Shown here piece after piece: positions 535-17,325 of a DNA stretch of 41,148 nt (its first letter is position 1; each line of letters starts with the position of its first letter). Location: positions 1 through 41,148 of IMG/VR virus record IMGVR_UViG_3300005471_000030. The stretch is one strand, 5' to 3'. Under the pieces are notes generated by a model. That model was not told where the DNA came from, did not search any database, and saw nothing but the letters and a program-made list of their open reading frames with translations. The DNA is from a virus. The translations under genes were made by a program, and so were the position numbers.

Positions 535-544
535 TTCAGACTCC

Positions 545-988
545 TTATGTGTTACTCAGTATTTTTACTTTACTCATAATGAACCGATACCCAATGCACT
601 GTACGCCGGAATAATCAACCTGCGGAAGAAACTGCATTGTGATTTCATCGAATGTGCTGATGGTATTTCCAAACCTCGCACCCGGTCCACCGGATATATT
701 TGAAACCTGTGCAATCAGCGCCGCGGGAATTGAATCAATGAATGGGTCAATAATTGCTAAATCGTGCGCCAGGTCAATCCTGTTAGTCAGAACATCAATA
801 ACGATGTTATATAAACTTTTCCGCGTACCCTCCGCTCCGGCTCCAAGATTGCCGGTGGATAGATAAATCGCCGCAAATGGAAAATCATTCTGCGTTTCAT
901 TGGGATTGGTAGGTGCCTGATGTATCCCGGATACACCGGCAACCACTGAGGCGATTTGAGTTTTGGCATTTACGAATTCATTAGCCAT
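545..988 (-). CDS. tail terminator / tail completion protein
   Basis: A 147-residue protein located between the head-tail connector and the major tail protein, which is where siphophages encode the protein that caps the tail tube and joins it to the head. The sequence has the alternation of short hydrophobic strands and one helix typical of such proteins, including LYNIVIDVLTNR and FDEITMQFLPQVDYSGVQCIGYRF. The assignment rests on position, size and this pattern. The gene ends within a TACTSAGTA palindrome (553-561; the last residues are ILSNT). The start follows the connector gene by 6 nt. Confidence 0.6.
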   Translation of the reverse strand: MANEFVNAKTQIASVVAGVSGIHQAPTNPNETQNDFPFAAIYLSTGNLGAGAEGTRKSLYNIVIDVLTNRIDLAHDLAIIDPFIDSIPAALIAQVSNISGGPGARFGNTISTFDEITMQFLPQVDYSGVQCIGYRFIMSKVKILSNT

Positions 989-994
989 TGCAAA

Positions 995-1609
995 TTATCC
1001 GATATAAGACAAAACGTATGGTGACAATAAAAACAGCACATCAGGATCCGGCGGCGGTACTTTGGTGGACATCTCACCATGCGCGGTCATTGCACTTACA
1101 CCCAACGGAGTGGCATAGCGTTTATACATTCTCATACTCCAGATAATGCATGCTTCCTTGATTGCTTTTGGCACCGCGGGCCAGCCGCGCTTACCAACAA
1201 CTTTGACATTCTTAGGAGTGTTGGGAAGAAAACCATATCTCCCAGTGGGACGAACAATATCTATCCTCATATATGGTTTTTGCTCTGCTTCCAACAGTGC
1301 GTTATATGGCCATAGCTCATAGTCAGTATCAGCAACCCAATCCACGTATGACCGATTGCCACTATCCACGGAAAGCGTAGTAATGGAAACATAGTCACCA
1401 ATCAAAACGTAATCACTACTCACGGGAGTGAAATATGCCGTTGTATCATTGGTATCTTTCCAGAAGAACCTCGCACATTGATAATCAATTGCACGAGATA
1501 CAGCTTCGATTGCACCCTCGAGCGCGGTGTCATAGGTGGTCACTGAGATATTCAATCTCTCAGCTTCTTTGAGTTCTGCGAGTGTGCAATACGCATTTGT
1601 CAATGTCAT
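995..1609 (-). CDS. head-tail connector (gp6-like adaptor)
   Basis: A 204-residue protein. The N-terminus (TLAELKEAERL...YDTALEGAIEAVSRAIDYQCARFF) is the standard opening of gp6/gp15-type connector proteins, which form a ring beneath the portal. A beta-rich middle (residues 55-150) and a helical end (PKAIKEACIIWSMRMYKRY) follow. It is the first structural gene after the accessory cassette and the oppositely oriented HNH gene. No clear Shine-Dalgarno sequence precedes ATG 1609; the HNH insertion immediately upstream may have displaced the original leader. Confidence 0.75.
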   Translation of the reverse strand: MTLTNAYCTLAELKEAERLNISVTTYDTALEGAIEAVSRAIDYQCARFFWKDTNDTTAYFTPVSSDYVLIGDYVSITTLSVDSGNRSYVDWVADTDYELWPYNALLEAEQKPYMRIDIVRPTGRYGFLPNTPKNVKVVGKRGWPAVPKAIKEACIIWSMRMYKRYATPLGVSAMTAHGEMSTKVPPPDPDVLFLLSPYVLSYIG

Positions 1610-1671
1610 TTCGTAATACTCATTTTTGCGTTACAATAGTAATTGTCATGTGCTGAGCATACAGGAGAAAA

Positions 1672-2232
1672 ATGAAAACTAAAATTTGTATTCATAGCGA
1701 TTGTCCATTTGGCTATATACCTCAACCGATTAGTAATTTTTGTAAAGATAAAACTAAACCAGATGGACATCATACTTATTGCAAAACTTGCAGAACCAGA
1801 ATAGCCAGAATAAGAATGGAAGATAATCCAAGTGCTAAAGAGAAAAATAGACAAGCACAAATCAGATACAGAAATACTGAGCATGGAAATAAAAAACAAA
1901 AGAAATATTATCTTGAACACAAATCTGAATACCGAGAGCGAGAGAAAAGCTATCAACAAAGACCGGATGTAAAAGCTAAACATGCGGAAAAGATGAAAAA
2001 ATATAGGCAAAGAAACAAACCAAAAGAGCGAGCTAGGCAAGTTATTAACTATGCGATTAAAAAAGGATATATAGCTAAACCAAGTATTTGCGATTGGTGC
2101 AAGAAACCCGCCAACGGAATTCTTGAAATTCACCATTGGAAAGGTTATGCTGTGTCTCATTGGTTTGACGTAAAATTTGTTCATTCTAAATGTCATGACC
2201 TCGTAGAAAACTTATCTCCAAAGGACTGGTGA
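1672..2232 (+). CDS. HNH endonuclease, probably a free-standing homing gene
   Basis: A 186-residue protein transcribed against all its neighbours. The N-terminus has a zinc-ribbon-like arrangement (CIHSDC... CKTC). The middle, residues 55-120, is Lys/Arg/Gln-rich and helical. The C-terminus has CDWCKKP, EIHHWKGY and HSKCHDLV, the metal-binding Cys pairs and His residues of an HNH nuclease. The stretch is visibly richer in A/T than the flanking genes. An AGGAG sits 6-7 nt before the ATG. Orientation, composition and family all suggest a mobile homing-type insertion between the accessory cassette and the connector gene. A second member of the same family is at 31262-31684. Confidence 0.8.
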   Translation: MKTKICIHSDCPFGYIPQPISNFCKDKTKPDGHHTYCKTCRTRIARIRMEDNPSAKEKNRQAQIRYRNTEHGNKKQKKYYLEHKSEYREREKSYQQRPDVKAKHAEKMKKYRQRNKPKERARQVINYAIKKGYIAKPSICDWCKKPANGILEIHHWKGYAVSHWFDVKFVHSKCHDLVENLSPKDW

Positions 2233-2235
2233 TCG

Positions 2236-2406
2236 TCATATGTCAATCCCCTTTTCCCATAATTGCTTCACGGTAAATAAAGATGTCCATCTGATGGTTT
2301 TCCAGAAGAACAATAAAAATCTTTTCTGAAGTTTCCATGATTCTCTAGTCATGGTTCCATCGTTCCAGGATATTTCTATAACTCTGTATTTCTTGAAAGT
2401 AAACAT
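2236..2406 (-). CDS. 56-residue hypothetical protein (end of accessory cassette)
   Basis: The open frame starts at ATG 2406, three bases after the radical SAM gene's stop, and ends 4 nt from the HNH stop. The product is basic and rich in aromatic residues (Trp/Phe/Lys), for example FLLFFWKTIRWTS. It may be a small membrane-associated or DNA-binding protein. The ribosome site is weak, so it probably depends on coupling with the gene before it. The region would otherwise be unexplained. No family is recognised. Confidence 0.5.
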   Translation of the reverse strand: MFTFKKYRVIEISWNDGTMTRESWKLQKRFLLFFWKTIRWTSLFTVKQLWEKGIDI

Positions 2407-2409
2407 CTT

Positions 2410-3207
2410 TTATCCGGTCACTACAAAGCAAGACTGACACAAGCGTGGGTATTCTCTGCGCGCAAATGCCAGGCGTCGCGTTTCCATTCGTTCCCATAAT
2501 TCAACGGGTGAATTTTGGTTCACATTGCCAATGATGTCATCAGCTTGCAAATCTTCACAGCACATTGGTACCGAACCGTCTGAAAGGATCGTGAACGTTT
2601 CCATCAGCGCGGTGCAATGGGTCACACCCTCGCGCGCGGGCAGAGGTTCATTTTTCATGCGTGCCCAGGCACGGATTTGAATGCCCTCAAAAATAACATT
2701 AGGGCAATCTGCAAAGTAATCACGAAGATATGGAGCAACAGAATCAGTACCCTTGCGAGCGTTGTAAATCTTGATTATCTTTGGACGGTGCAAAGATAAA
2801 GCCAATAACCTTACTTGCTCCGCGTGTTTTGTAAAATCAGACCCAACACGAATAGAATTATTCTCTTCAAATGTGTCACCATCAAAGCTAACTCGCAATT
2901 CGTCAACTTGCGAAAGGTCACGCTTGTTACTCAGTAGGGAGGCGTTTGTGTTGAAGGCAATCTTTTGCACGCCGCGCATTTTTGCATATTCAATCATGGC
3001 TTCGAGATATTTATTCAATAGTGGCTCACCACCATGATACAAAACCAATACACGCGGAACGAACGGCAACATCTCAAAATATTCCACAAATTTTTCATAG
3101 CGTAGAATCACTCGATGCCCGCCTTCTACGCCAATGGGGCAATGGCGACACTTGAAATTGCAAACGCCTGCGGGTTCGATGCGAACTACATCAGGAAAGT
3201 GTCTCAT
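2410..3207 (-). CDS. radical SAM enzyme with SPASM-like C-terminus
   Basis: A 265-residue protein. Cys16, Cys20 and Cys23 form the CxxxCxxC motif that binds the [4Fe-4S] cluster cleaving S-adenosylmethionine. A C-terminal Cys-rich stretch (MCCEDLQ ... GNVNQNSPVELW ... LCQSCF) matches the short SPASM/twitch region seen in peptide-modifying and some carbohydrate-modifying radical SAM enzymes. It overlaps by 17 nt a 55-residue gene and follows a methyltransferase and a DUF115-like protein. The four look like one accessory cassette inserted between capsid and connector genes. The substrate cannot be read from the sequence; a virion protein, a small peptide or a surface glycan are all possible. 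Confidence 0.85.
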   Translation of the reverse strand: MRHFPDVVRIEPAGVCNFKCRHCPIGVEGGHRVILRYEKFVEYFEMLPFVPRVLVLYHGGEPLLNKYLEAMIEYAKMRGVQKIAFNTNASLLSNKRDLSQVDELRVSFDGDTFEENNSIRVGSDFTKHAEQVRLLALSLHRPKIIKIYNARKGTDSVAPYLRDYFADCPNVIFEGIQIRAWARMKNEPLPAREGVTHCTALMETFTILSDGSVPMCCEDLQADDIIGNVNQNSPVELWERMETRRLAFARREYPRLCQSCFVVTG

Positions 3208-3355
3208 GATATTTTTTCAACAATTCAATTGCTAAATCAACCGCGGAACTTTCTTCAAAAGGTTTCTGAATATTTTCGTCTACTTCCTTTGGAAAAGTTT
3301 CACGCAAAAATTTTGCTAATCGAATAATCTCCAACTCAAAGTAATTTTCGTTCAC
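3191..3355 (-). CDS. 55-residue acidic protein next to the radical SAM gene
   Basis: I start this gene at GTG 3355, which overlaps the methyltransferase stop (GTGA) and has GAGG 5-6 nt upstream; an ATG at 3475 would run through the methyltransferase gene. The product is helical and charged (NENYFELEIIRLAKFLRE ... AIELLKKYHETLS). It lies directly before the radical SAM enzyme and overlaps it. In radical SAM systems a small protein here can be a substrate or a binding partner, but I see no core peptide pattern such as repeated Cys, Gly or Thr, so a role is only a guess. Confidence 0.6.
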   Translation of the reverse strand: MNENYFELEIIRLAKFLRETFPKEVDENIQKPFEESSAVDLAIELLKKYHETLS

Positions 3356-4041
3356 TTTTTCCTCGCGTAAATTTCCATTTGATTTCCGGGAAAGGCAAAC
3401 TTGCGATACCCCTCGACCATACTGAGTAAGAATTTCGAGAAGTCTGCAACTGGCCGCGCGTAGGGTGTGCCCCAATACGGATGCAACACTTCTATATTTT
3501 CAAACTCTAACCTACTGAGTATATTGGACAGAAAACGACTACCAAACAATATCCAATTGCGTGCGGGGTCGAGAGCTGGCAATTGTCCAAATAGTTTGTA
3601 AACCAAGCTGTCAATGTCGGGAGTTGCCAATATAACAAGTAGTCCTCCTGGTTTCAAAACTCGCGTGGCTTGCACAAGCGCGCGCATGGGGAAGTTGATG
3701 TGCTGCAGCGTGCCACGGAAAATCACCACATCGAAAAAAGCAAAATCCGCAGATTGAACATTTCTAAGCATCGTGATCCCCTTTGCGCGTGCTTTCTCCG
3801 CGGCAAAATCAGACGGTTCGAACCCGTACTTTTCCCAACGGTCATCGAAACAGGACAGAAACCCGCCAATACCACAACCAATATCTAGCACTTTGCCAAA
3901 CTGACAACGCTCTACAATGCGCTTATGCTCTTGCAAGTACATCTTTTCGCGTTGCCTGTCCAATAAGTAGTATTGGTCGAAATACTCCCGTTCATACAGG
4001 TTTGCGTCATCGGTAGGATTGAGGTTCGCAATGCTACTCAT
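3352..4041 (-). CDS. class I SAM-dependent methyltransferase
   Basis: Starting at ATG 4041 the product has 229 residues. Motif I, VLDIGCGIGGFL, binds S-adenosylmethionine. VVIFRGTLQHI and the post-motif RVLKPGGLLVILATP are typical of Methyltransf_11/12-type small-molecule or sugar methyltransferases. The first residues, NLYEREYFDQYY, resemble those of methyltransferases found in polysaccharide clusters. The frame is open for 72 more codons upstream, but those overlap the DUF115 gene in another frame, so I reject that extension. Two TACTSAGTA palindromes lie in its C-terminal part (3420-3428 and 3513-3521, read as LLSM and ILSR). Confidence 0.85.
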   Translation of the reverse strand: MSSIANLNPTDDANLYEREYFDQYYLLDRQREKMYLQEHKRIVERCQFGKVLDIGCGIGGFLSCFDDRWEKYGFEPSDFAAEKARAKGITMLRNVQSADFAFFDVVIFRGTLQHINFPMRALVQATRVLKPGGLLVILATPDIDSLVYKLFGQLPALDPARNWILFGSRFLSNILSRLEFENIEVLHPYWGTPYARPVADFSKFLLSMVEGYRKFAFPGNQMEIYARKK

Positions 4042-5056
4042 TGGGCAATGTCCTTCCAGTGAGCGCCAGCTTATCCTCCACGCGGATCCACTTTTCATCG
4101 TTCTGTGCCAGGACCATTTGCGCCATCCCGTTGTATTCCATGACCTTTTCAACACGGGATTGCCAGGAACGGCAATCAATATACTGGCCGTTGACAAACG
4201 CGTGATTGGCAATGGCTTGCTCGTACATGTTCTGGGCTTCTTCGTATTTTTGTGCAATTTTCATCAAATCATCTTGTGGGATGTTTGCCGTTTGTGCGTC
4301 AATGAATTCCTTTTGCACCGCGTCTACAATCCCGCGCGCCCGGTTATATTCTGAGTGGGTTTTGTCCATGAGCTGCTGCAACTCAGATGCACGCGCCTCG
4401 AATGCCTCACGATCCACTTTGGATGCATCCATTTCATAGCCATATAAAGGCGCATAGAAGATCATAGATTGCTCAGGAAGTACAACTTCAATGCCGCGCC
4501 CGATTGCAATGCCAAGCCACAAACCTATGCCGTCCCGCTGGTACACATACTCAGTATTGTTCTCCATTTCGATACCGTACATTTCGATGCGCGTATAGCC
4601 ATGAAAGATTGCCAGTGCAATTGCATAGCAGGGACCAGACGTAAAATATCTGTTGATCTGTTCGCCGCGCCTGAAATTGGGAAGCAGAGAACTAACAACA
4701 TCTTCCAATGGATAAACAATATTTCCCGGACAATCCGGTGTAATGTGCGGCGTGTAAAATTGGATTCCTTTTTTAGAATGTAGCCAAGTTCCAAAGGCTT
4801 TATCCTCTTGCGACCGTCTGAAAATATCCTCAGGAGGATGGATGTCAAATACCGCGTTTGCGCGCGGGCACCAGTCCATTGTGCTTTGTCCGTTGAAGAT
4901 CCAAATATCAACGTTCGGATCATGAAACGGTGCTTTCTCGCGTGTGATTGGATGCGTGCCCACAAGTGCAACAGTTTTATTTTGCATAATAATATTTGTC
5001 ATGATTGCAGGAGGCAGGGAGTAACCCCTACCTCGATTTCTATATCGCTTGCTCAT
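4034..5056 (-). CDS. DUF115 / MptE-like protein with coiled-coil C-terminus
   Basis: A 340-residue protein. Residues 25-190 resemble the DUF115 fold (6-hydroxymethylpterin pyrophosphokinase MptE-like): TVALVGTHPI, DIWIFNG, FTSGPCYAIALAIFHGYTRIEMYGIEM. This fold also occurs in glycosyltransferase-like motility accessory factors. Residues 215-300 are a charged helical coiled coil. ATG 5056 overlaps the preceding stop (ATGA). Together with the methyltransferase and radical SAM genes it suggests synthesis or transfer of a modified sugar or cofactor onto a virion or surface component. That role is inferred from the neighbourhood. Confidence 0.65.
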   Translation of the reverse strand: MSKRYRNRGRGYSLPPAIMTNIIMQNKTVALVGTHPITREKAPFHDPNVDIWIFNGQSTMDWCPRANAVFDIHPPEDIFRRSQEDKAFGTWLHSKKGIQFYTPHITPDCPGNIVYPLEDVVSSLLPNFRRGEQINRYFTSGPCYAIALAIFHGYTRIEMYGIEMENNTEYVYQRDGIGLWLGIAIGRGIEVVLPEQSMIFYAPLYGYEMDASKVDREAFEARASELQQLMDKTHSEYNRARGIVDAVQKEFIDAQTANIPQDDLMKIAQKYEEAQNMYEQAIANHAFVNGQYIDCRSWQSRVEKVMEYNGMAQMVLAQNDEKWIRVEDKLALTGRTLPNE

Positions 5057-5466
5057 GCCGCTCGAACGATTGGGAATGCGGCAACAGCCAGTGCAAAGTT
5101 ACTGCCGGAAGTTGCCTGCCCGGAGTTGTACAAAGCTCTCACATATCGCTTTGTCACAATGCCATATTTCTCAGACAGAGCACTCACACCATCTGTATTA
5201 GTGAATGCAACAGTGGAGCCATCGTAAGCCAGCACGTTGGTAAACGATGCGGTTGCAGTTGAATCACATTCCTGGATTGTCACATTGGCAACGAACCCGG
5301 TTGACGATGAGGGAGATTGCACAGAGGCAATTACGAACTTGATTTCCCGCTTGCCCACTGGAAAATAATTCGCAAGGTCAACCGCTGAACCTGCTGATGT
5401 CGAGGTTGCACTTGAGGCAATACTCAACGCAAGCAAGCTAACCATTAGGGTACTTCTGGAATTCAT
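5053..5466 (-). CDS. virion accessory protein after the capsid gene
   Basis: A 137-residue protein. It carries AVDLANYFPVGKREIKFVI, VANVTIQECDSTATASFTNV and KRYVRALYN, a beta-sandwich pattern I associate with small phage head or decoration proteins encoded next to the major capsid gene. The first 25 residues are Ser/Ala/Leu-rich, but without a good signal-peptide charge pattern I do not call it secreted. AAAGGAAAT lies before ATG 5466. A hairpin (5492-5513) separates it from the capsid gene. Confidence 0.6.
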   Translation of the reverse strand: MNSRSTLMVSLLALSIASSATSTSAGSAVDLANYFPVGKREIKFVIASVQSPSSSTGFVANVTIQECDSTATASFTNVLAYDGSTVAFTNTDGVSALSEKYGIVTKRYVRALYNSGQATSGSNFALAVAAFPIVRAA

Positions 5467-5491
5467 GTTTTATTTCCTTTCAGCATCTCGA

Positions 5492-5513
5492 CGGGTGAGC
5501 CGAAACCCACCCG
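5492..5513 (-). other. short hairpin between capsid and accessory gene
   Basis: CGGGTG (5492-5497) and CACCCG (5508-5513) form a perfect 6-bp stem. No T-run follows on the reverse strand, so it is more likely an RNA processing or stabilising hairpin behind the highly expressed capsid gene than a full terminator. Confidence 0.35.
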
Positions 5514-5535
5514 CCCTAAATCGCGCTGTGAAATA

Positions 5536-6954
5536 TTATGTACTTGAAAGAACCTTCATGCGCCAGTAGTGCACCAGGTCACCGCCAGTGCGCTTACGCA
5601 TATAGACAACCACTTGATCGCGCAACCCGTAGACCTCACGGAACACTTCCACCGAAAGACCAACGCGGTCAATGATGTAGTAACCTTTGAGATCGCCGAG
5701 CGCTGCATACTTGTTGGATGTTGCAGGGTTTGGCATGAACTGATTTTTTGCCAGTCCATAACCAAGCAGAGAGGGGGACATGCCGTTGGAATAGTTGGGG
5801 TACGCATCGCCAAGCGACCACTGAGGCAGAGTGGCAGTGCCAGCGTTGATAGAACGCAACGCGGCAAAGGTGGTTTTATTTGCATACCACTTGGCAAAGG
5901 TTTCGTACTGCATCGGCAGTTGCGCTTCCACGCCGATGATGCCCGTGGTTGTGCCACCCCATGCAATGGTAGTAGTACCGGAAAGGATTTGATTACCCCA
6001 GTAGGTCACACCAGCGACTACTGAGTAGGTGCTGTATGCGATTCCCATTGACGGGTGAGACAGGAAGCCGCGCGGCTGACCTGCGCCCGTTCCATTCGTG
6101 TACGCTGACTCTTCGCCAAGTGCGTAAGCTTCGGAACCCAACTCACTGATATACCCCATGACATCAAAGCTATTATCCTCAAGCTGTTCGCGGGTCATGA
6201 TGATTGCAGCGGTTGCCAGATGCACCGGAATACTGATCTGTCCGGCGATTGGGTTTGTTGCTTCAGAAATATCAGACGTTGACGTATTGGAACCGCGCCA
6301 ACTGAAACGCACACCGCTGGTAAACAAATTCGCGGACGCATCATCAACCGTGGAGCCGTTGTAATTCACACTTGGAAATGTAATGTGATCGGTACCGGTC
6401 GTGTATACACGCGCGTTAGGTCTAACCGTAGACATCGCTCCGATTTTCTTTACCAATTCAGGGCGATAATCAGGAGCAAGCCAGAAACCACCAGACGGGT
6501 CTGAACCTTCATTCAGTACCTTCATCGCGTCGCTCTTCATTGAACGACCTAAACCAGCGGAGCGGATGTAATCAGCCTGGGCATCCTTATATGCACCGGA
6601 TTTCAGCGCATCAAGTTTCTTTTGTCCCATACTTTTAAACTGACCAGGAACGGCATACATTTCACCAGTTTGCGGATCAACAGTTACACCGGGAATATCG
6701 CCTTCACCGGGCAGGGTTTCACGTCCAAAGGTCGCAGCGACTTGGGAGCCTTGCGATTCGTCACCATAACGCTTCAGTTCTTGCGCGGCGTTGTAACGAT
6801 CAATGTCTTTCGCCAATCGTTGACCTTCAGCAAGAAAAGTATCATAACTTTTCGTTTGATCTTCATTTGGAGTTTTATCTCCAATTTCGCCTTCGAGAGT
6901 CTTGATCTTTCCCAAAACATCATCGTAGGCTTTTCTAATTGCTTTTATATCCAT
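5536..6954 (-). CDS. major capsid protein (HK97 fold)
   Basis: A 472-residue protein. Residues 1-60 are a charged coiled coil (KTLEGEIGDK, AEGQRLAKDIDRY), the scaffold-like delta domain removed by the protease in HK97-type phages. The mature part begins near GSDPSGGFWLAPD and contains the usual HK97 capsid pattern (ISIPVHLATAAIIMTREQLEDN, ELGSEAYALGEESAYTNGTG, GQPRGFL). It sits directly after the protease gene, with a 10-nt gap. Its length is a little above the common 300-420 residues because of the delta domain. One TACTSAGTA copy (6019-6027) is read as TYSV. Confidence 0.93.
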   Translation of the reverse strand: MDIKAIRKAYDDVLGKIKTLEGEIGDKTPNEDQTKSYDTFLAEGQRLAKDIDRYNAAQELKRYGDESQGSQVAATFGRETLPGEGDIPGVTVDPQTGEMYAVPGQFKSMGQKKLDALKSGAYKDAQADYIRSAGLGRSMKSDAMKVLNEGSDPSGGFWLAPDYRPELVKKIGAMSTVRPNARVYTTGTDHITFPSVNYNGSTVDDASANLFTSGVRFSWRGSNTSTSDISEATNPIAGQISIPVHLATAAIIMTREQLEDNSFDVMGYISELGSEAYALGEESAYTNGTGAGQPRGFLSHPSMGIAYSTYSVVAGVTYWGNQILSGTTTIAWGGTTTGIIGVEAQLPMQYETFAKWYANKTTFAALRSINAGTATLPQWSLGDAYPNYSNGMSPSLLGYGLAKNQFMPNPATSNKYAALGDLKGYYIIDRVGLSVEVFREVYGLRDQVVVYMRKRTGGDLVHYWRMKVLSST

Positions 6955-6964
6955 TAGAACTTAC

Positions 6965-8080
6965 CTACCTTTCAATGTGATATTTCAATTCGAGTAATTT
7001 TGCTTGTCTCTTTTGATGCTCAAACCGCAAATGATTTTCATTTGCATCTGGTAATTGCACGCCAAGAGATTTCAAAAACTCCAAAGAGCCAATCATGCGC
7101 GGCTCTGCCGGAGTGTTTGTTAATGCGGAGGCAAACCATGGCCATTGTCTCAGCCAAGTAGATTTGCCAGTTTGCTCCCTGATAACATATTGAGGAGCGG
7201 AATCGGAAGATGTACCAAGCACACCTTTTTTAATAAGTTCGTCAATTGCTTGTCTATACTGATGAGATGTATCCAGCTTTGCCACATACCAACGCCCAAT
7301 ATCGTCATCACCAAAATCAGTAATACTGCCAATAATCGGGGAGGCTTTGAAACTTTCATCTTGTGCGTGATCCCATGTTAAAGGTCTGGCAGATTTCCCC
7401 AGTGTGCCATCCCAAAAATCCGTGTCATTGGTAAAGTATTCGATTTCAACATCAGTAAGTTTGGGAGAACCCCACAGGAACGTATACCCTTTGATCTCAT
7501 TCAAGCCGGTAAACTTCACTGCCATTGATTTTGTACTATCCAAGCCGATAGATTTCACATAAGACAGATTCAAGTCTTTGTGTTTTGGAATTGCAAATGA
7601 TTTAGCAGGAACGGATTGAATAGCCTGTTCCATTTCGTCTATTTCAATCTTGATGAAATCAACGATGCCCCGCATGATTACAGCTAGTTTCGATACGTTG
7701 GTTTTTTCGGCATTTTGTATATCCCACATATTAGTAAGCATATTCAAAGCCGCACAAGCATTTGATATATCCCACCCTTCCTGCCTAGCGTACTCAACCC
7801 CTCCCACTTCATACATATCAATAAATTTCAAGGCAGAAATTGACTTTTCACTTTCGCCACATGCCGCGCCCATTTCTACCATTGCATCGTGTGCACCTTG
7901 AATCTTTTTCATGTTCGCCGCAGAAATCGCCGCGCCGATTTTCATATTCTTTGCATCCTCAACATTGGCTTCTAATGCTCCAAGATGCGCTTTAGCCTTT
8001 TCTTTGCTATCATGCTTTTTGACCAATGTTCCATCTTCTTTTAGGACCGATAAGCCATCTTCTGAAAGTTTGTACGGCAT
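6965..8080 (-). CDS. head maturation protease
   Basis: From ATG 8080 (GGAG 8 nt upstream) the product has 371 residues. The second half carries the prohead protease pattern: FLWGSPKLTDVEIEYFTNDTDF, then TWDHAQDES with the likely catalytic His, DDIGRWYVAKLD, LGTSSDSAP with the likely catalytic Ser, and ASALTNTPAEPRM. The first 160 residues are unusual: a short lysine-rich start (MPYKLSEDGLSVLKEDG) and a helical segment that could be an internal scaffold. It precedes the capsid gene as in HK97-like phages. A Rho-independent terminator lies just upstream of its ribosome site, so its expression may depend on read-through. Confidence 0.85.
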   Translation of the reverse strand: MPYKLSEDGLSVLKEDGTLVKKHDSKEKAKAHLGALEANVEDAKNMKIGAAISAANMKKIQGAHDAMVEMGAACGESEKSISALKFIDMYEVGGVEYARQEGWDISNACAALNMLTNMWDIQNAEKTNVSKLAVIMRGIVDFIKIEIDEMEQAIQSVPAKSFAIPKHKDLNLSYVKSIGLDSTKSMAVKFTGLNEIKGYTFLWGSPKLTDVEIEYFTNDTDFWDGTLGKSARPLTWDHAQDESFKASPIIGSITDFGDDDIGRWYVAKLDTSHQYRQAIDELIKKGVLGTSSDSAPQYVIREQTGKSTWLRQWPWFASALTNTPAEPRMIGSLEFLKSLGVQLPDANENHLRFEHQKRQAKLLELKYHIER

Positions 8081-8096
8081 GGCAATTTCTCCAAAT

Positions 8097-8145
8097 AAAA
8101 AACGCCTACGAAGCACAGGCGAAAACCTGTTGCACTCGTAGGCGT
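8097..8145 (-). terminator. Rho-independent terminator upstream of the protease gene
   Basis: The arms ACGCCTACGA (8102-8111) and TCGTAGGCGT (8136-8145) form a perfect 10-bp stem, with an inner ACAGG/CCTGT stem. On the reverse strand the hairpin is followed by six T (8102-8097). It lies 17 nt before the protease ATG, so it either ends the small RNA described next or acts as an attenuator for protease and capsid. Confidence 0.85.
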
Positions 8146-8253
8146 CAATTTCGACAACGAAATTATCTAACGTCTAGCTGAAATATTCAATTTATCGGGA
8201 ACACGTGGTCTATATAGGGCATCTGCCTTGTTAACTAACGCGTGTTCTCTCCA
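8097..8253 (-). ncRNA. candidate structured RNA (about 157 nt) or attenuator leader
   Basis: Between a consensus promoter (8260-8289) and the terminator (8097-8145) there is no gene of normal length. The transcript can form GAACACG/CGTGTTC (8241-8247 with 8199-8205), a second hairpin AATTTCG-TTGT-CGAAATT (8147-8164) and the terminator hairpin. An 11-codon frame starts at ATG 8222 with AAGG close before it, so a leader peptide with attenuation is an alternative. I do not recognise a known riboswitch or small RNA family. The transcription start is estimated from promoter spacing. Confidence 0.5.
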
Positions 8254-8259
8254 AAAAAC

Positions 8260-8289
8260 ATTTTACAGTAGGAATTATAAAATTGTCAA
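8260..8289 (-). promoter_or_regulatory. sigma70-type promoter, leftward
   Basis: On the reverse strand the -35 box is TTGACA (8289-8284), the spacer is 18 bp and the -10 box is TAAAAT (8265-8260). A second TTGACA (8296-8291) lies directly before the first. A TACTSAGTA palindrome (8312-8320) is 15 bp upstream of that outer TTGACA. This is one of the best matches to the consensus in the window. Confidence 0.65.
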
Positions 8290-8326
8290 TTGTCAAATAG
8301 TTACAGAACGATACTCAGTATTGGGG

Positions 8327-8489
8327 TTATAGTCCGTAGGCACATTGGTCATACTCTATTTGTTCGGCTGTAATTCTATTAATAAATTTTTCCTGAATTT
8401 CTTCCATCGTTGCAATAGTGTACTTAATTATTCGCAACGGTTTCTCGACATCCATAACAAAATTTATTTGCACATTACTATCACTCATA
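8327..8489 (-). pseudogene. small gene broken at a homopolymer (53 codons if repaired)
   Basis: ATG 8489 has AAAGG 7 nt upstream and overlaps the end of the previous gene, like its neighbours. The frame stops after 21 codons because of a run of five A on the + strand (8459-8463). With four A it would read 53 codons, beginning MSDSNVQINFVMDVEKP and ending at 8327 with a helical, charged product (ATMEEIQEKFINRITAEQIEYDQ). Either this is a one-base sequencing or assembly error, a recent mutation, or a +1 frameshift site. A downstream ATG (8452) could give a 42-residue protein on its own. Function unknown. Confidence 0.5.
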
Positions 8490-8490
8490 A

Positions 8491-8982
8491 CTATCCTTTC
8501 ATCCTATCCCATGCACCTTTGATGCCGCTTCTGAACCGCTCCATAATTACCGCGCTGTTGTCCACAACAAAAGTATTTACTGGTTTCCAACCGCGCGTGA
8601 GATGTCCGATGATTTGAGTGAAGTTCCCTTGCACCCACTTGAAATAAGGTGCGGCGTTTTGGTAGGCGATATATATAGAGCTATATTGCTTTTTCACAAC
8701 AAAATCACCGGAGCGCGCCAGTTCATATGTTCGTTTGGTTGGGATACCGCGCCCAAACCCATTGGAAGCAAAAAACGCGCGCCTCTGTTTATCCGATGAC
8801 CATAAAAACGGCTCATTGCTCTGTTCTGGGTACATAGACATTTTAATTTGGTCATTATTCAAAAACGTATTGACACTCTCCAAGCCTTCCTGAATTACAA
8901 ACGGAGGGTAATTTTCCAACTTGGTTTTTATCTTCGCAAGTTGGCGGGCATCAGTTTGAATGTCCAGAAGTTTATTAGCCAT
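8491..8982 (-). CDS. small virion morphogenesis protein (gp10-like, tentative)
   Basis: A 163-residue protein encoded after the MuF-like gene. The middle, DKQRRAFFASNGFGRGIPTKRTYELARSGDFVV, followed by YIAYQNAAPYFKWVQG, resembles the core of small phage morphogenesis or neck proteins of the HK97 gp10 type, which also carry a basic, Gly-containing segment and an ABC-like strand pattern. The order is unusual, since gp10-like genes more often follow the connector genes. The start codon touches a TACTSAGTA copy (8982-8990) lying at the junction with the upstream gene. Confidence 0.5.
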   Translation of the reverse strand: MANKLLDIQTDARQLAKIKTKLENYPPFVIQEGLESVNTFLNNDQIKMSMYPEQSNEPFLWSSDKQRRAFFASNGFGRGIPTKRTYELARSGDFVVKKQYSSIYIAYQNAAPYFKWVQGNFTQIIGHLTRGWKPVNTFVVDNSAVIMERFRSGIKGAWDRMKG

Positions 8983-8991
8983 ACTGAGTAC

Positions 8992-9702
8992 CTAGATTGT
9001 AATTACTTCGCCATCATCTGTAGAAAGTTCGCAATCACAATAATATCCACCGCACAACATAGCAGCTCCCGGTTTGCGGGGAATGTAGTCACGATTGATA
9101 AACCAAGAGGCACGGTGACGTTTGCCATCAAGACTTTTGCAAGTGTCACAGTGTTTCTCCGTGCCACCTAAATTCCAGGTTAGCATTTGGTTTTTTTTCG
9201 CAAGCATCAATGCCGCATTATAAACTGACATAACCGCCGCGGTATAACCATCTGCTTTCTGCGATACCCATGAGAAATAATCGAAATCTTCTTCTTTGCG
9301 AAGTTCTTTCGCTTGTTGGAAAAGCTCATCAATAAATCCAAATTCCGCACTCACACGCGCGTTGAACCATTCCAGTGCATCATCGTCCAACGGCAACTCT
9401 TGCCCACCGTCTACCCAGCCGGCATCGGAAGCAGATCCAAATGCCTCTACCATGACTTTTTTGAAATCGTTTTTAGGTCCTGAAATTGCACCACTATTCT
9501 CGAAGTAGTCAGTTAGTATATCTGTGATTGCATCATGATACGTAGCATTAATATCTGAAATATCTTCTGCTTGCTTAGTTGCACGACTGGCAACGAAATT
9601 GCGAAAGCCTTTCATTTCCAATTGCAAAGTAAGTTCTGATGGCAAAGGAATACCGTTGTCGCTCAGGTAATCTAGTGCCCGTTGCACAGCAGCGAAGTTC
9701 AT
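8992..9702 (-). CDS. MuF-like minor head protein
   Basis: A 236-residue protein. The C-terminal third has GGTEKHCDTCKSLDGKRHRASWF, then YIPRKPGAAMLCGGYYCDCEL, the Cys-containing pattern of the Mu protein F-like minor head domain, here with the usual paired cysteines that may bind metal. The N-terminal two thirds are helical. Such proteins are carried in the head and often encoded after the portal, as here, with one small gene between. The start overlaps the 63-residue gene upstream by 4 nt. Confidence 0.8.
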   Translation of the reverse strand: MNFAAVQRALDYLSDNGIPLPSELTLQLEMKGFRNFVASRATKQAEDISDINATYHDAITDILTDYFENSGAISGPKNDFKKVMVEAFGSASDAGWVDGGQELPLDDDALEWFNARVSAEFGFIDELFQQAKELRKEEDFDYFSWVSQKADGYTAAVMSVYNAALMLAKKNQMLTWNLGGTEKHCDTCKSLDGKRHRASWFINRDYIPRKPGAAMLCGGYYCDCELSTDDGEVITI

Positions 9703-9890
9703 TTTTTATCACGCCTCATTTTGTCGTTTTCATCCTCCATTGCATTATGTAGAGCACGTAAATATTTCATTACATCAACCAGATCGATGCCCTTTTTTAT
9801 ACTGGTTGACATATGCCAGTTGTTGTCAAAATCAAAGATTAATTCATAACGTCCGTCATCTTCTATAAGCCTGATTGATTTAAGTTTCAT
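9699..9890 (-). CDS. 63-residue hypothetical protein between portal and MuF
   Basis: The short product has a strand-strand start (KLKSIRLIEDDGRYELIFDFDNNWHMSTS) and a charged helical end (VMKYLRALHNAMEDENDKMRRDKK). It overlaps the portal gene end by 11 nt and the next gene start by 4 nt, so it is part of the same translated unit. No family is recognised. Confidence 0.6.
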   Translation of the reverse strand: MKLKSIRLIEDDGRYELIFDFDNNWHMSTSIKKGIDLVDVMKYLRALHNAMEDENDKMRRDKK

Positions 9891-11409
9891 TTATCGCTTC
9901 TTTCAACGAAACAATCACCGCCTGTCCAACATACTCATGCACTAATTCTTTCTGCCGTTGGGGTGGCAGGTATTTGAATTCATATTCAGGAAGATCGTCA
10001 AACTTGCCTTCCCTGATTCGCCGCTTGGCAAATGAGCGATATTTCTTTTCCTCAGCATCTTGCAAATCAATTTCCTCCTGTGTCTTTTTAGGTTCCGGCA
10101 GCATTGGTGGCACTTCATCACCTTCAACAGTTTCACCATCTGGTAATTCATGTTTTTCCGCCTCCTGATAAAACGCTTCCCCCTCTTCACCTTCAATCGG
10201 GTCAAGTCCTGCTTCCTTGCGCGCCTCATTCATTCGCGCCCATTTGCCACGATACATTTTATCGGCACGGTCTACTTGCGAGGTTCTATCCTCTTGCAAT
10301 GCCTTTACCCCTTTGGTTTCAAAACCGCAGACAAATAATTTTGGTTCACTTTCAAAATCAGGAAGCAACTGATCCGTTGCCACTCCTGAGAGATATTTCC
10401 ATTCGTTTGAAATTGCACCTTCGTAAAATGATTCTCGACTTTCTTTGTAATTTGCAAACGTGCTCCTATCAATCCCCACCTTTGCACCGATAAGGATCGG
10501 AGGTACGCGGAACACCATGCAGATCCGGCTCTCACTACGTGCGTCAACTTCCGGGAAAACCATATCTCGGAAACTGCTGGATGTGGCTTGAAATTTCAAC
10601 CCTTTCCCGATTACCGCAATTTCACCCGCGTTTGCCGCGCCGCCGTGGGATTCCTGCCAACGGCGTTTGTAAACTTCTGCCTCTGCATTCTGCAAAACTT
10701 GGTTTTCAGTACTCAGTATGCCTCCTAAGAAGTTGCCATTTTTCAAAAAGGTTTGCAGCATGATCGTCATATTGTTGTCAGTGTTGATCATTTCCAGTGC
10801 TGACATCGTTGGTGAAAATGGTTTTAGCAATGGGTACAGTGGATCAAAATACTGAAACAACAATATATCTTCAATAGCGATGTCTAGATAAGGCAAGCCG
10901 TAGGGCTGATAGCGAATGGCGCGTATCGGCTTTTGTTGCCCTCGCAGGAAGCTGCACCAGTCGGGACGCATCGGCCATAGTCGAATTGTTTCCCCTCGAT
11001 TGTTGCGCTCTTTCTCCCATGCGCTAAACCCGGCGATACCCAAATACGTTTCAGTGACTTTCCAAAACGTTTGTTCACTTACACCTGGGCATGGGTTAGA
11101 AAGTAATTCACTAATGCGATGATGAGCAATCATTTCTTTGTCATCATCCCTATAAATTTGCAATGGTGCCTCGCTCACCGAATCCGCGCGTACGTTGATG
11201 CAAGTGAATACCAGCTCATTCACCCTATATCCCATTTGCGCGAGGGCGTACGGATTGGGGGTTTGGTATTGCGGTGTGGTCACTTCCCACTCTGGATAGA
11301 AACTAGAATACGCCATGCCGCGCGGCAAACCCACCGATGATTGATTGACAAACATGGATTGCCCGGCGGCTTGCTGTGATTGGACGATTAAATCCTCGAG
11401 GTATGCCAT
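9880..11409 (-). CDS. portal protein
   Basis: Starting at ATG 11409 (AGGAG 7-8 nt upstream) the product has 509 residues. It contains the phage portal pattern: VNELVFTCINVRADSVSEAPLQIY near the N-terminus, WPMRPDWC, DILLFQYFDPLYPL, FRDMVFPEVDARSESRICMVFRVPPILIG and the FANYKESRESFYEGAISNEW segment. The last 100 residues are charged and low in complexity (EEGEAFYQEAEKHELPDGE). Portal rings connect the terminase to the capsid. It follows terminase and three small genes. One TACTSAGTA copy (10710-10718) is read as ILST. Confidence 0.9.
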   Translation of the reverse strand: MAYLEDLIVQSQQAAGQSMFVNQSSVGLPRGMAYSSFYPEWEVTTPQYQTPNPYALAQMGYRVNELVFTCINVRADSVSEAPLQIYRDDDKEMIAHHRISELLSNPCPGVSEQTFWKVTETYLGIAGFSAWEKERNNRGETIRLWPMRPDWCSFLRGQQKPIRAIRYQPYGLPYLDIAIEDILLFQYFDPLYPLLKPFSPTMSALEMINTDNNMTIMLQTFLKNGNFLGGILSTENQVLQNAEAEVYKRRWQESHGGAANAGEIAVIGKGLKFQATSSSFRDMVFPEVDARSESRICMVFRVPPILIGAKVGIDRSTFANYKESRESFYEGAISNEWKYLSGVATDQLLPDFESEPKLFVCGFETKGVKALQEDRTSQVDRADKMYRGKWARMNEARKEAGLDPIEGEEGEAFYQEAEKHELPDGETVEGDEVPPMLPEPKKTQEEIDLQDAEEKKYRSFAKRRIREGKFDDLPEYEFKYLPPQRQKELVHEYVGQAVIVSLKEAINET

Positions 11410-11699
11410 TATGATTTCTCCTTGCCTGCTTTTTGGAGCCACTCTGTATATTCTGTACCCTTTGTAATATCGAATATCTGAACAAGTTTGGAATGAATAT
11501 TGTCAACAAACGTAAAGGCAGTACCCACCATAACCTTTTGACAAACCGGGCACAATAACAAACGGGTATTATCACCAAGCCATAAATTTATATCTACGTT
11601 GTCAATAGATTTATTCTTTAGATGTTCACAAAGCAAAATCTTTTTCCCCTTGATTTCCTCTTTGTGTTCTTTTCTGAATTGTTTCAAGGTTATTATCAT
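11409..11699 (-). CDS. hypothetical protein with a Cys-X2-Cys pair
   Basis: The 96-residue product starts MIITLKQFRKEHKEEIKG at ATG 11699, which has AGGAG 7-8 nt upstream; upstream in-frame codons lack a ribosome site. It holds LLLCEHL and LLLCPVCQKV, which could bind a zinc ion, and ends TEWLQKAGKEKS. It overlaps both neighbours by TAATG. It sits between terminase and portal, where phages often carry unrelated small genes. Function unknown. Confidence 0.65.
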   Translation of the reverse strand: MIITLKQFRKEHKEEIKGKKILLCEHLKNKSIDNVDINLWLGDNTRLLLCPVCQKVMVGTAFTFVDNIHSKLVQIFDITKGTEYTEWLQKAGKEKS

Positions 11700-11956
11700 T
11701 ATGATTTCTCCTTGAACCCGGTCCAAAATCGAAAAGTAAAACTTTTTACACTTTCCTTTTCCGCTTCCAATAGTTTTGCCTCAATATCCACAAGAGAGTT
11801 ATCTATAAAAAATACTTTAGCATTTGCCCCAACGCGCCGCGCGGTTTCCTGTGCAACTGCTTTCTCCGTGAACATCAGTGCCCGCTCACCATCGCCGCGC
11901 AACCAGCCAGTACCAGGTATCCAAATTCCGTAAAAGATTTGCATTTGTTCAGTCAT
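11699..11956 (-). CDS. hypothetical protein, 85 residues
   Basis: The product begins MTEQMQIFYGIWIPGTGWLRGDG and ends in a helix rich in Lys and Glu. The start resembles that of the next gene upstream (MTEQNQGGLWVPEVAYVDMLRDG), so the two may be diverged duplicates. It shares TAATG overlap with its downstream neighbour and overlaps the upstream one by 8 nt. Function unknown. Confidence 0.65.
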   Translation of the reverse strand: MTEQMQIFYGIWIPGTGWLRGDGERALMFTEKAVAQETARRVGANAKVFFIDNSLVDIEAKLLEAEKESVKSFTFRFWTGFKEKS

Positions 11957-12167
11957 TGCGAATTGCCTTTATCTTTTTCATTGCTTCCAACAGGGATTCT
12001 TTTGGATGAATTTCTACCTGATAATAACCAAATGATTTCACCCATGCGCCAAGCAAAATAAACCTATCACCTATAAATCTGATAAATCTATAAATCCATC
12101 CATCCCTAAGCATATCAACATATGCCACTTCCGGCACCCACAAGCCACCTTGATTTTGTTCAGTCAT
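11949..12167 (-). CDS. hypothetical protein, 72 residues
   Basis: The product begins MTEQNQGGLWVPEVAY and has a hydrophobic, aromatic middle (WIYRFIRFIGDRFILLGAW) that may associate with membrane, then a basic helical end. AGGAG lies 9 nt upstream of ATG 12167. It is possibly related to its downstream neighbour through the N-terminal MTEQ...G(I/L)W(I/V)P pattern. Confidence 0.6.
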   Translation of the reverse strand: MTEQNQGGLWVPEVAYVDMLRDGWIYRFIRFIGDRFILLGAWVKSFGYYQVEIHPKESLLEAMKKIKAIRND

Positions 12168-12170
12168 ATT

Positions 12171-12302
12171 CTATGCTCCTGGTTCGCCGCCATCGCAGCG
12201 CACTTTATAGGTTTCTCTCGTAACCATAATGATTCTGTCCAATAAGGTAACCGTGAAGATTACACCAACAATAAAACCAAGAATGAAAAATAGAATAATC
12301 AT
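12171..12302 (-). CDS. 43-residue single-span membrane protein
   Basis: The ATG at 12302 overlaps the terminase stop (TAATG). The first 22 residues form one hydrophobic span (MIILFFILGFIVGVIFTVTLL), followed by a short basic tail (RETYKVRCDGGEPGA). Its 3' end contains the ribosome site of the next gene. It fills the gap between terminase and the small genes before the portal. Confidence 0.55.
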   Translation of the reverse strand: MIILFFILGFIVGVIFTVTLLDRIIMVTRETYKVRCDGGEPGA

Positions 12303-13807
12303 TAGAAAATTTGTATCGGCGTGATCGCAGTTTGCAGTGCAATCAAACCGCCCATAACCGTATCATCGTGTCCATTGCCAGAAGCGGCGAGCCTCCACAC
12401 ACCGGAAGGTAATTGACTAGAAACAAAGTTTGTATATTCCTGTCGTTGCACGGGATAATCCTGCAATTGCCAACCACCTGTATCAAAGGCATCGTATGCA
12501 TCACCCGCCCACTCTGATTTACTTGCGTTGCTTGTAGTAAATTCCATGATTTCAATTCCATCTTCACGCAATGCTTCAATGTTGACACTACCTACATTAT
12601 TGGTTTCAGCCCCTAATCGAGGCTTCCTGATACTCAGTATGGGTGCTTTGCATTGGGGGCAAGCATTGTATATTTTCTTTTCCTCGTGGTTCCAAATTCC
12701 TGCAATGAAATGTCCATTGACACAAATTGCATGTGACCACTTCTCAAATAAAGTGATTCTTATTCTGCGTCTGATTTCTTTCCACGCCATCTTGTTGTCG
12801 TGAAATAAATCTACTTGCCGTTTCGTTGTCTTATCGAAAATCGGCATAGCGGTATAGTCATCTGATTGACCAAAATCTAAACCTGCGAAATATTCATGAT
12901 CGGGATTGTATTTGACATTCATCGGAGCATTGAACATCTTTGCAATGTTCTCGCCAAAGTACGAACTTCCAGAAGTCAGAAAACAAGTAATTGGATCTTC
13001 GGGGTACTCCTGTACAAATAAATGCTTGAGTTCCTTTTTCTTATTTCGCCGCCATTTGATTTGTTCTTGCGTCAATCCATGGGCATCTGCAAGTTTTTGC
13101 TCTTCATCGGTATAGGATAAAACCTCACCATCGGACAATGCCAATGCATACTCTTCATCCCACCACCACGGATAAAAATGGAGTGTCCATACCCCCTCAC
13201 CTCGGTACGCTTCCATGCACAACTCATAAAAATATCCCAGTGCACCGTTAGGAGTGGATTCCAAAATTACATCAGGATTACCACCTTGCATTGCACCGGC
13301 CATGATGCTTTCGGCGTCCGGCCAGAAGGCAACTTCCGAGCCGTGCAAATCAGTATAAGTATCACCACGACCAATAGAAACATGACCCGCTGTACCAATC
13401 GTGCACGAACTATCAAAATCTGGATAAGTTGTTAGAGAGGCATTGGCGTATTTTCTTTGTGGCTGCAAATCCCCAAATTTGCAATTGTCATAAAACCTAT
13501 CCACCATCATACGGATTTTATCGGTCAAATCATTATGGTGAGTAAGGGTTATGCTTGTTGTAGTTTTTGTAACTGCCCGTCTAAATAATTCCCCTTGCAC
13601 ATAGGTTGATGATCCCAACTGCCGAGCCTTCAGAATCAAATCCCGCCCGGTTCGGTGCGCGTGAAAGTGCCGTTGCATTCTGTTCCATCGAAGTGGGACA
13701 AGTTCCTTTTTCTTATCCAGTATCTTCAGGAAGTTGCTTGCAAACCGTTCAGGATTCTTCGTTATCTGTTTCGGTGTCAGGGTCGGTGTCGCTGTTAACA
13801 AAATCAC
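12302..13807 (-). CDS. terL: terminase large subunit
   Basis: A 501-residue DNA-packaging motor. The ATPase part has KARQLGSST (about 60-68, Walker A-like), TDLHGSEVAFW (about 152-162, Walker B region) and ILESTPNG (about 181-188, motif III). The nuclease part begins with LDFGQSDD (about 310-317), whose Asp residues bind metal. A Cys pair (CPQCK, about 400) could bind zinc. The start is uncertain: GTG 13807 overlaps the small terminase gene by 59 nt and has only a close GGA before it. One TACTSAGTA copy (12631-12639) is read as ILSI. Confidence 0.93.
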   Translation of the reverse strand: MILLTATPTLTPKQITKNPERFASNFLKILDKKKELVPLRWNRMQRHFHAHRTGRDLILKARQLGSSTYVQGELFRRAVTKTTTSITLTHHNDLTDKIRMMVDRFYDNCKFGDLQPQRKYANASLTTYPDFDSSCTIGTAGHVSIGRGDTYTDLHGSEVAFWPDAESIMAGAMQGGNPDVILESTPNGALGYFYELCMEAYRGEGVWTLHFYPWWWDEEYALALSDGEVLSYTDEEQKLADAHGLTQEQIKWRRNKKKELKHLFVQEYPEDPITCFLTSGSSYFGENIAKMFNAPMNVKYNPDHEYFAGLDFGQSDDYTAMPIFDKTTKRQVDLFHDNKMAWKEIRRRIRITLFEKWSHAICVNGHFIAGIWNHEEKKIYNACPQCKAPILSIRKPRLGAETNNVGSVNIEALREDGIEIMEFTTSNASKSEWAGDAYDAFDTGGWQLQDYPVQRQEYTNFVSSQLPSGVWRLAASGNGHDDTVMGGLIALQTAITPIQIF

Positions 13808-14099
13808 TCCATTTCATCAGAGTAGCATTGACATTTAATTCATCTCGCAGTAACCCAGGTGCATCTGCTTTCATAATCAATTCGTGATCTCTTGGATTCT
13901 TACTTTTCAACATCCTAATGATCATATCATCGTAAACTGTTTTCCCCTTTAGATTTGTTAATTGACCTGATTCCATTGTGCAAAGTTGCTGAATGCGTGC
14001 ACGGCGTTGTGCTGACATGGCACGGTATTTATTGCCTATCGGTGCCGGGGGTCCGGGTTGCAAATTTGCAAGTGAGTTTGGATTCATCTTTTTTTTCAT
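13749..14099 (-). CDS. terminase small subunit (tentative)
   Basis: The 116-residue protein lies immediately before the large terminase, the standard place for the DNA-recognition subunit. It starts with a basic Pro/Gly-rich segment (MKKKMNPNSLANLQPGPPAPIGNKYRAMSAQRRARI), a pattern of small terminases and related DNA-binding phage proteins, and ends in a very acidic tail (DTDPDTETDNEES). I see no clear HTH. The call rests mainly on position. Confidence 0.55.
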   Translation of the reverse strand: MKKKMNPNSLANLQPGPPAPIGNKYRAMSAQRRARIQQLCTMESGQLTNLKGKTVYDDMIIRMLKSKNPRDHELIMKADAPGLLRDELNVNATLMKWSDFVNSDTDPDTETDNEES

Positions 14100-14707
14100 G
14101 ACATCCTCACCACATGTCGAACCGGAATATAGGCATAGCCTTCAACGGTAATCAAAGGATAGAACACATCCCCGCGCGCAGTGCCAGTGGAGAGGATCCG
14201 TTTGGTGGTTTTGGTTGCAACATCCCAAGTGACGCACGCGAACCTGTGAATAAACTTTGGATCATTTGCAATTGTCCATCCTGTCACATCACTTTGTTTC
14301 AGGGTCTTGAACCTGTACCAATCTCCGATGCGTTCTAAAACCTCGATTTCGTTTCCACACATGCCAACGTACGCCATCTTGGGCCAGCCTGTCGTGTTGA
14401 ACTGCGCACGAGATGAACCGATGAGATAATCAAACTTTTGCACATTGCCATCGTTCATGGCAATGATTGCATCTTTCCAATCATAGGGAGTTGCCAAGTT
14501 CACCCTAAAATCTCCCGCACCTTCACGCATGAATGGGTAAAACCGAATCACTGCCGGCGGGTTTTCGGGACCAATGAAATCAGATGATTGCGTACGACAT
14601 TTGAAATCCCAATCTGGATTTTCATCATCCCATGCAAAGCGATACCGAGAGATGCCCTTTGGAATATATGTTTTCTCAAACGCGGTAACAACATCGGGGA
14701 ATGTCAT
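14096..14707 (-). CDS. hypothetical protein with SH3-like segment, in the lysis/packaging junction
   Basis: A 203-residue protein between the lysozyme and terminase genes, overlapping both by 4 nt. Residues 110-145 (MAYVGMCGNEIEVLERIGDWYRFKTL ... VTGWT) look like one bacterial SH3-like domain, and the lysozyme next door has a similar C-terminus. It may bind cell wall or act with the lysozyme. Many Trp and Tyr residues occur throughout. The rest is not recognised. Confidence 0.55.
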   Translation of the reverse strand: MTFPDVVTAFEKTYIPKGISRYRFAWDDENPDWDFKCRTQSSDFIGPENPPAVIRFYPFMREGAGDFRVNLATPYDWKDAIIAMNDGNVQKFDYLIGSSRAQFNTTGWPKMAYVGMCGNEIEVLERIGDWYRFKTLKQSDVTGWTIANDPKFIHRFACVTWDVATKTTKRILSTGTARGDVFYPLITVEGYAYIPVRHVVRMS

Positions 14708-15708
14708 GGCTTTATAACGTAGGTTTTCGTTTCATTCCCAATTGTGATTCCAATTTCAGGCGGGAATGTTGGCGTCACAACCGGCGGAGGAGAAGGAGGA
14801 AACATTGGTGTCACAACTTCACTGTAAGCAAACCATTCTGCTTTACTCCATCCGACAATAGGTGATGTCAAATGAATATATTTCGTACCTGATACGATTT
14901 TTATGCTATCAGCCTTGATTGCCGCGCCCAACGAAACATCAGGATACACTCTCACATCTCCGGCATCAGCCCAGACTTTCGCGGTAGAAGTACATTTGCC
15001 TGTGTAGTTTGTCATAATAGTTTCTCCTATAATGTTGTTTCCAATTGCATTTAGAAAAAATGGAGTGATAAGGTTCAAATCCACTGCACCTTGAATGCCC
15101 TTTACGACTCCATTTTCTGCATACTGCCATAATCCCGGCGTGCCCCATTTGGATTGGTCTGGAATATATGCACTGGGAATTACAGAATACAGATCCGGCA
15201 GAAATGGATAACCAGCGGTCCACGTGGGAATTTTCTTGAAGTATTCTTTTTCGGCGTTGGTCATGGCAATGGCATCGAGAATATTTTTTCTTGAATAGAG
15301 CATCAACAGGTTTTTAGGAAACGCATGTTTCACGCGTTCAAACCATGCCCACAAGCGCGGCGTCATCAATTGGTTTTCAAGAGTGGATAATGGCTCTTCG
15401 AAATCGAGAATGAGCAAATCGGTACTCAGTATGTCTATCGCTGAAATGATGTTGATGAAGTGCTCTGCTTGTTTGACCGCGTCACATGCTTTCCTGAAGA
15501 AGTGATAAAAGCCACGTATGCAACCAATTTGCATCATGCCCGTGGCAAAGCGCAAGAACTTGTCATCGGTGTGACTATATGCAGCACCGGGATGTGCCTC
15601 CGTGGCCTTAGTGATAAACAATATTGGACGCGGTGCAACGAGTTTGAAATCCGGGATCTCTTTCCAATGGGACACATCATAGACTGGTGGAATCTTAATC
15701 TGTGCCAT
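14704..15708 (-). CDS. endolysin, glycoside hydrolase family 25 lysozyme
   Basis: I start at ATG 15708 (GAGGAAATA before it); the open frame upstream has no support. The 334-residue product has VYDVSHWKEI near the N-terminus, FITKATEA, GFYHFF, LLILDFEEP with the catalytic Asp and Glu, and GLWQYAENG...VDLNL, together the GH25 muramidase barrel. The last 100 residues include a second SH3-like wall-binding part (VWADAGDVRVYPDVSLGAAI) and a Pro-rich linker (PMFPPSPPPVVTPTFPPE). It cuts peptidoglycan at the end of infection. Neighbouring membrane proteins are candidate holins. Confidence 0.9.
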   Translation of the reverse strand: MAQIKIPPVYDVSHWKEIPDFKLVAPRPILFITKATEAHPGAAYSHTDDKFLRFATGMMQIGCIRGFYHFFRKACDAVKQAEHFINIISAIDILSTDLLILDFEEPLSTLENQLMTPRLWAWFERVKHAFPKNLLMLYSRKNILDAIAMTNAEKEYFKKIPTWTAGYPFLPDLYSVIPSAYIPDQSKWGTPGLWQYAENGVVKGIQGAVDLNLITPFFLNAIGNNIIGETIMTNYTGKCTSTAKVWADAGDVRVYPDVSLGAAIKADSIKIVSGTKYIHLTSPIVGWSKAEWFAYSEVVTPMFPPSPPPVVTPTFPPEIGITIGNETKTYVIKP

Positions 15709-15806
15709 TATTTCCTCGGTGGATTGCGAGTGGCAACAATTGTATAAATGACCGCCAACACAAAAACGGCCGTTAAAACACCGTAAGCGATTTGCACAGA
15801 GTTCAT
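15708..15806 (-). CDS. 32-residue membrane protein before the lysozyme
   Basis: ATG 15806 has GGAGGG 8-9 nt upstream. The product has one hydrophobic span (YGVLTAVFVLAVIYTIVA) and a basic end (TRNPPRK). It overlaps the lysozyme start (TAATG). Size, topology and place fit a small holin-like or spanin-like lysis protein, but this is inference. Confidence 0.6.
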   Translation of the reverse strand: MNSVQIAYGVLTAVFVLAVIYTIVATRNPPRK

Positions 15807-16159: not shown

Positions 16160-16161
16160 AA

Positions 16162-16386: not shown

Positions 16387-16389
16387 CGG

Positions 16390-16752: not shown

Positions 16753-16838
16753 AGCAACCTCCATTAGTCTGATTAAATGCAACGTCCCTCTAATCATAGA
16801 GGGACTTACCACTTTAGGGGAATACCTAAAGGTGTAGT

Positions 16839-17301: not shown

Positions 17302-17325
17302 TGTAATAACGGAATCCGTTACCAG

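Follow-up and report, generated by a model that had tools for sequence, protein, structure and literature searches.

The late-gene switch of phage lambda consists of the promoter pR', a 6S RNA ended by the terminator tR' and the structural genes behind it, with Q as the antiterminator. The loading of lambda Q has been described (PMC7171158). The put RNA of phage HK022 is about 70 nt long and acts on early genes; sequence and two stem-loops are common to its copies (PMC9378689). Phage genomes also hold non-coding RNA units, among them mini-CRISPR arrays and RNA anti-CRISPRs (Racr) (PMC11656645, PMC10651486). Here we compare these systems with a promoter-leader-terminator unit in the linear virus record IMGVR_UViG_3300005471_000030, the whole of which (41,148 bases, hereafter the window) was analysed. 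We read this unit as a candidate transcription gate ahead of head genes, laid out like lambda pR'-6S-tR', and give this reading a probability of roughly 55%.

Genomic setting

On the minus strand of the window the head genes run in the order portal, two small head proteins, a 53-aa ORF, the promoter-leader-terminator unit, prohead protease and HK97-type capsid (Table 1), and no ordinary gene occupies positions 8081-8326; an earlier reading of the letters alone (the sequence-only reading) had noted none within the unit. The 371-aa protease had no match in Pfam or PHROG and owes its name to its position ahead of the capsid gene and to its relatives. The phage is probably temperate, since the plus strand carries an integrase gene. 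The sole relative in a bacterial genome, itself distant, came from a Chloroflexota bin, and a capsid search covering about 400 genomes from the class to which that match belongs returned distant capsids only.

A radical SAM/SPASM protein is encoded among the head and tail genes at 2413-3207 (-). In many relatives a gene that we call ferritin-like, from the appearance of its sequence, occupies the interval from the small head protein to the protease, where the window has the 53-aa ORF (L003:1-498, L004:4232-4714, L036:2600-3121, L037 about 2600-3099, L043:1848-2351, L069:2293-2763 and, in L055, before 1310); in several relatives it stands directly ahead of the cassette.

Table 1 Features of the unit and its flanking genes, in the direction of transcription.
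Feature	Position in window	Strand	Details
53-aa ORF	8327..8488	(-)	Upstream of the promoter-leader-terminator unit
-35 element	8284..8289	(-)	TTGACA (6/6)
-10 element	8260..8265	(-)	TAAAAT (5/6), 18-nt spacer; predicted RNA start ~8253
Leader RNA upstream of the terminator hairpin	8147..8253	(-)	Predicted; fold z -1.0
Hairpin 1	8199..8247	(-)	GAACACG/CGUGUUC; z -1.9, 7/200 shuffles, marginal
11-codon frame	8187..8222	(-)	MPYIDHVFPIN + stop, ATG 8222; read directly from the sequence
Intrinsic terminator hairpin	8101..8146	(-)	-29.8 kcal/mol
U-tract	8093..8100	(-)	TTTTATTT, following a stem whose last two bases are UU
Shine-Dalgarno of protease gene	8089..8092	(-)	GGAG, immediately 3' of the U-tract
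Prohead-protease gene	6965..8080	(-)	371 aa, ATG 8080
Major capsid protein	5536..6954	(-)	Phage_capsid, HK97 type

Promoter, leader and terminator of the window

The near-consensus promoter and the strong Rho-independent terminator described in the sequence-only reading both held up. The promoter (TTGACA-18-TAAAAT at 8289-8260 (-), 11/12) is a sigma-70-type match and was the top-scoring match on either strand of the scanned window (positions 1-20000 and 21149-41148); it has no extended -10, and the perfect -35 carries the match. By itself its score is not exceptional for the AT content of the window, being reached by 3.7% of random stretches of the same length and AT content. Weaker matches (9/12) are present at 8190 and 8882, and no other minus-strand match of at least 9/12 was found between the terminator (8101) and position 4848, downstream of the capsid gene. 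The terminator, ranked strongest in the window by an energy scan, has a z of -6.9 for its hairpin with TTTTATTT (0/200 shuffles equally stable) and lies 20 nt upstream of the protease ATG.

The predicted RNA runs from about 8253 to about 8093 (-), or approximately 161 nt. Folding of the whole predicted transcript gave a z of -4.7, nearly all of it due to the terminator; taken alone, the leader is unremarkable. Both hairpins proposed earlier for this region are found where they had been placed, the first being of marginal stability and the second lying in a middle leader segment that folds like its shuffles (z -0.8). Searches of Rfam at gathering and permissive thresholds, and of phages with the region of the unit by BLASTN, returned no matches; the sequence-only reading had recognised no known family.

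Terminators and promoters in relatives

The unit was compared across 25 loci, comprising the window, one Salinibacter phage and 23 loci from protease and capsid searches of viral contigs together with one scan of bacterial genomes. Several of the contigs are fragments; protease starts were chosen by eye, and those of L070 and L067 were set by reading the sequence. Under fixed rules (stem of at least 8 pairs, loop of at most 10, at least 6 T in 9 and at most -14 kcal/mol), terminators ending 16-47 nt ahead of the protease start were found in 12 loci, and L070, with its start codon taken as ATG 4043, is the thirteenth (13/25, the loci being related by descent and so not 25 independent trials). 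About 0.1 terminators would be expected in 25 stretches of 60 nt, and 27 occurred elsewhere in the 437 kb of strand. Because hairpins were required for detection, we caution against reading kept pairing as evidence; the position of the terminators is the clean evidence. The stem sequences are unrelated between loci, long U-tracts follow the stem directly in all 13, and stems are as stable as -43.7 kcal/mol. In L069, the closest relative (72% protease identity), a terminator (2834-2880) occupies the same slot after the ferritin-like gene, and two small genes lie between it and the protease.

The terminator is not essential to these phages, being absent from L037, L042, L043, L083, L003, L004 and L005. 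In L038 and L049 the protease is preceded by a strong hairpin that has no clear U-tract. A tree placed 14 loci, including the window, in one supported clade, and on this tree the terminator label must change about five times. Among nine HK97-type phages of other groups, in which the protease overlaps the preceding gene or lies within 46 nt of it, eight have no terminator within 120 nt of the protease; the exception, Blautia phage L103, has a terminator of -18.6 kcal/mol some 40 nt ahead of the protease. A tenth comparison region was left out, having no annotated protease.

Promoters could be aligned at this position in 15 of the 25 loci (chosen by eye), and no clear sigma-70 promoter was seen in the high-GC members (L002, L046, L085 and Salinibacter). 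The 437 kb of strand contain 10 copies of the extended -10 TGNTATAAT, and 6 of these fall in the 120 nt ahead of a protease gene (expected 0.14). At or right after the -10, L036, L039 and L070 carry ATTGAC or ATTGTC, a possible operator or a chance resemblance.

The sister phages L055 and L037 (support 100/100) share an identical TGTTATAAT after the ferritin-like gene. In L055 it is followed by a leader and terminator; in L037 it directly abuts the RBS of the protease gene. The occurrence of the same promoter with and without the leader and terminator suggests that it is the promoter of protease and capsid, with the terminator as an optional gate.

A candidate transcription gate

From this arrangement we infer that protease and capsid are transcribed from the promoter of the window and that read-through is conditional and under the control of a phage factor. 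Host RNA polymerase would start at the strong sigma-70-type promoter (constitutive initiation), make a leader of about 160 nt and halt at the intrinsic terminator just ahead of the start codon of the protease gene; this gene, the capsid gene and those behind them would be expressed from this promoter only upon read-through. The most likely cause of read-through would be a phage-controlled change of the polymerase in lytic growth, and in a lysogen the terminator would keep the head genes silent.

Proteins of the lambda-Q and Q21 families (PF06530 and PF03589) were found in none of nine records, namely the window and eight related contigs, several of which are fragments; control genomes gave matches in the same search. 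A Pfam scan of about 40 window proteins, the general scan by which the Q82 family (PF06323) was covered, likewise returned no antiterminator match. As lambda-Q and Q21 proteins were not found, our claim is that the unit would work like the lambda switch, not that it is one. Tentatively, we raise the possibility of a processive late antitermination unrelated to Q, N or put that acts on a gate midway through the head operon, with the sequence of the leader irrelevant and the gate doubling as a slot for non-coding RNA cargo, including CRISPR-like arrays.

The window also encodes, at 17056-17301 (-), an 82-aa protein with matches to LuxR/GerE and sigma-70 region 4, a possible late regulator. It was not found in the eight related contigs and is thus a weak candidate.

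Alternative explanations

CRISPR-like arrays are found in the same slot of some relatives. In Salinibacter phage 5_12 (OR896296, L065:541-1145) and in L066, an array stands ahead of the protease terminator; the Salinibacter array has seven 30-nt repeats (GTCGAACTATACCCTTTGGGGTGCTGAAAG, the first copies degenerate) with spacers of 30-37 nt, and its DNA is present in 183 Salinibacter ruber M8 phage records, where it is partly annotated as a hypothetical protein. The array in L046:1-250 has a 38-nt repeat, the last copy degenerate, with spacers of 33-38 nt, and is truncated by the contig end. Such arrays just upstream of the terminator indicate that the slot accepts non-coding cargo, and for the slot in general they keep alive the explanation that the unit is a standalone RNA gene (an 'RNA moron'), whose insulated small RNA would be produced during lysogeny or infection and whose terminator would mainly shield the head genes. 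The promoter-RNA-terminator unit is self-contained, as such a gene would be, and its leader is the longest among ten loci measured (predicted RNAs of 66-161 nt, mostly 89-110 nt). We nevertheless regard a standalone RNA as somewhat unlikely, because in most relatives the interval between promoter and terminator is short, with only about 20 nt in L036, and is without conserved sequence or fold; because the leader of the window contains no CRISPR-like or other repeat unit and has no Rfam match; and because L037 has the promoter that it shares with L055 but no RNA cargo at all.

It is improbable that the terminator is instead a leaky stop that sets a fixed read-through ratio, or that its hairpin only stabilises the capsid mRNA at its 5' end. 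The hairpins of L038 and L049, which have no clear U-tract, and the failure to find an antiterminator gene would fit these functions, but the long U-tracts right after the stem in 13 loci would be needless for a stabiliser, and such tracts behind very stable stems predict efficient termination.

Leader-mediated attenuation or RNA antitermination acting on the terminator, through a riboswitch, a leader peptide or a put-like RNA, is very unlikely, because the leader, although it stands ahead of a terminator and includes a marginal hairpin and an 11-codon frame, resembles no other leader in the set and cannot be aligned with them, not even with that of L069, shows pairing with the terminator arms (an alternative antiterminator) that is no better than in shuffles at five loci, and holds a frame for which the leaders of relatives, read directly, showed no counterpart. 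Leader sequence, length and fold all vary among relatives, which together with the pairing result argues against put RNA, riboswitch and leader-peptide attenuator alike and leaves the terminator as the part that is kept. The sequence-only reading had suggested a phage small RNA of about 157 nt, which is the standalone RNA considered above, an attenuator controlling protease and capsid synthesis, an antitermination leader comparable to put RNA and a leader peptide from ATG 8222. A unit that would control entry into the protease and capsid genes survives from this, its position being recurrent in relatives; attenuation is not supported, nor is a put-like RNA, the leader being weakly folded, non-conserved and unmatched in Rfam, and the peptide frame exists but has no parallel in relatives.

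Comparison with known systems

Like HK022 put, the window has an untranslated leader just after a promoter, with hairpins ahead of a terminator, but put is conserved and forms two long stem-loops, whereas this leader is not conserved and is weakly folded (z -1.0). Like a phage moron, an extra gene with its own promoter and terminator, the unit is self-contained between two structural genes, and the cargo of its slot varies among relatives; it differs in that the unit of the window holds no protein gene and that the promoter shared by L055 and L037 directly precedes the protease in the latter. Mini-CRISPR arrays and Racr are likewise non-coding RNA units of phages, and arrays occupy this slot in two lineages, L046 and the Salinibacter phages, where they would link late control to RNA cargo; no repeat unit was seen in the leader of the window. 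The Salinibacter ruber M8 phages, distant relatives with the terminator part (ahead of the protease at L065:1082-1129), are in culture, which makes that part testable.

The lambda switch differs from the candidate gate in several respects. It stands before the lysis and packaging genes, whereas the unit described here precedes protease and capsid within the head operon; it is operated by Q, whereas lambda-Q and Q21 proteins were not found in the window and the eight related contigs; and, set against 6S RNA, the predicted leader RNA is about 160 nt in the window and 66-110 nt in relatives. By eye, no -10-like element (sigma-dependent pause) was recognised immediately downstream of the predicted RNA start of the window. 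A terminator gate in these phages would point to a different antiterminator. The layout itself, with a promoter, a short untranslated leader, an intrinsic terminator and structural genes behind, is that of lambda pR'-6S-tR', and if a terminator gates the head genes of this unstudied phage group, lambda-style late control would reach further than the lambdoid phages.
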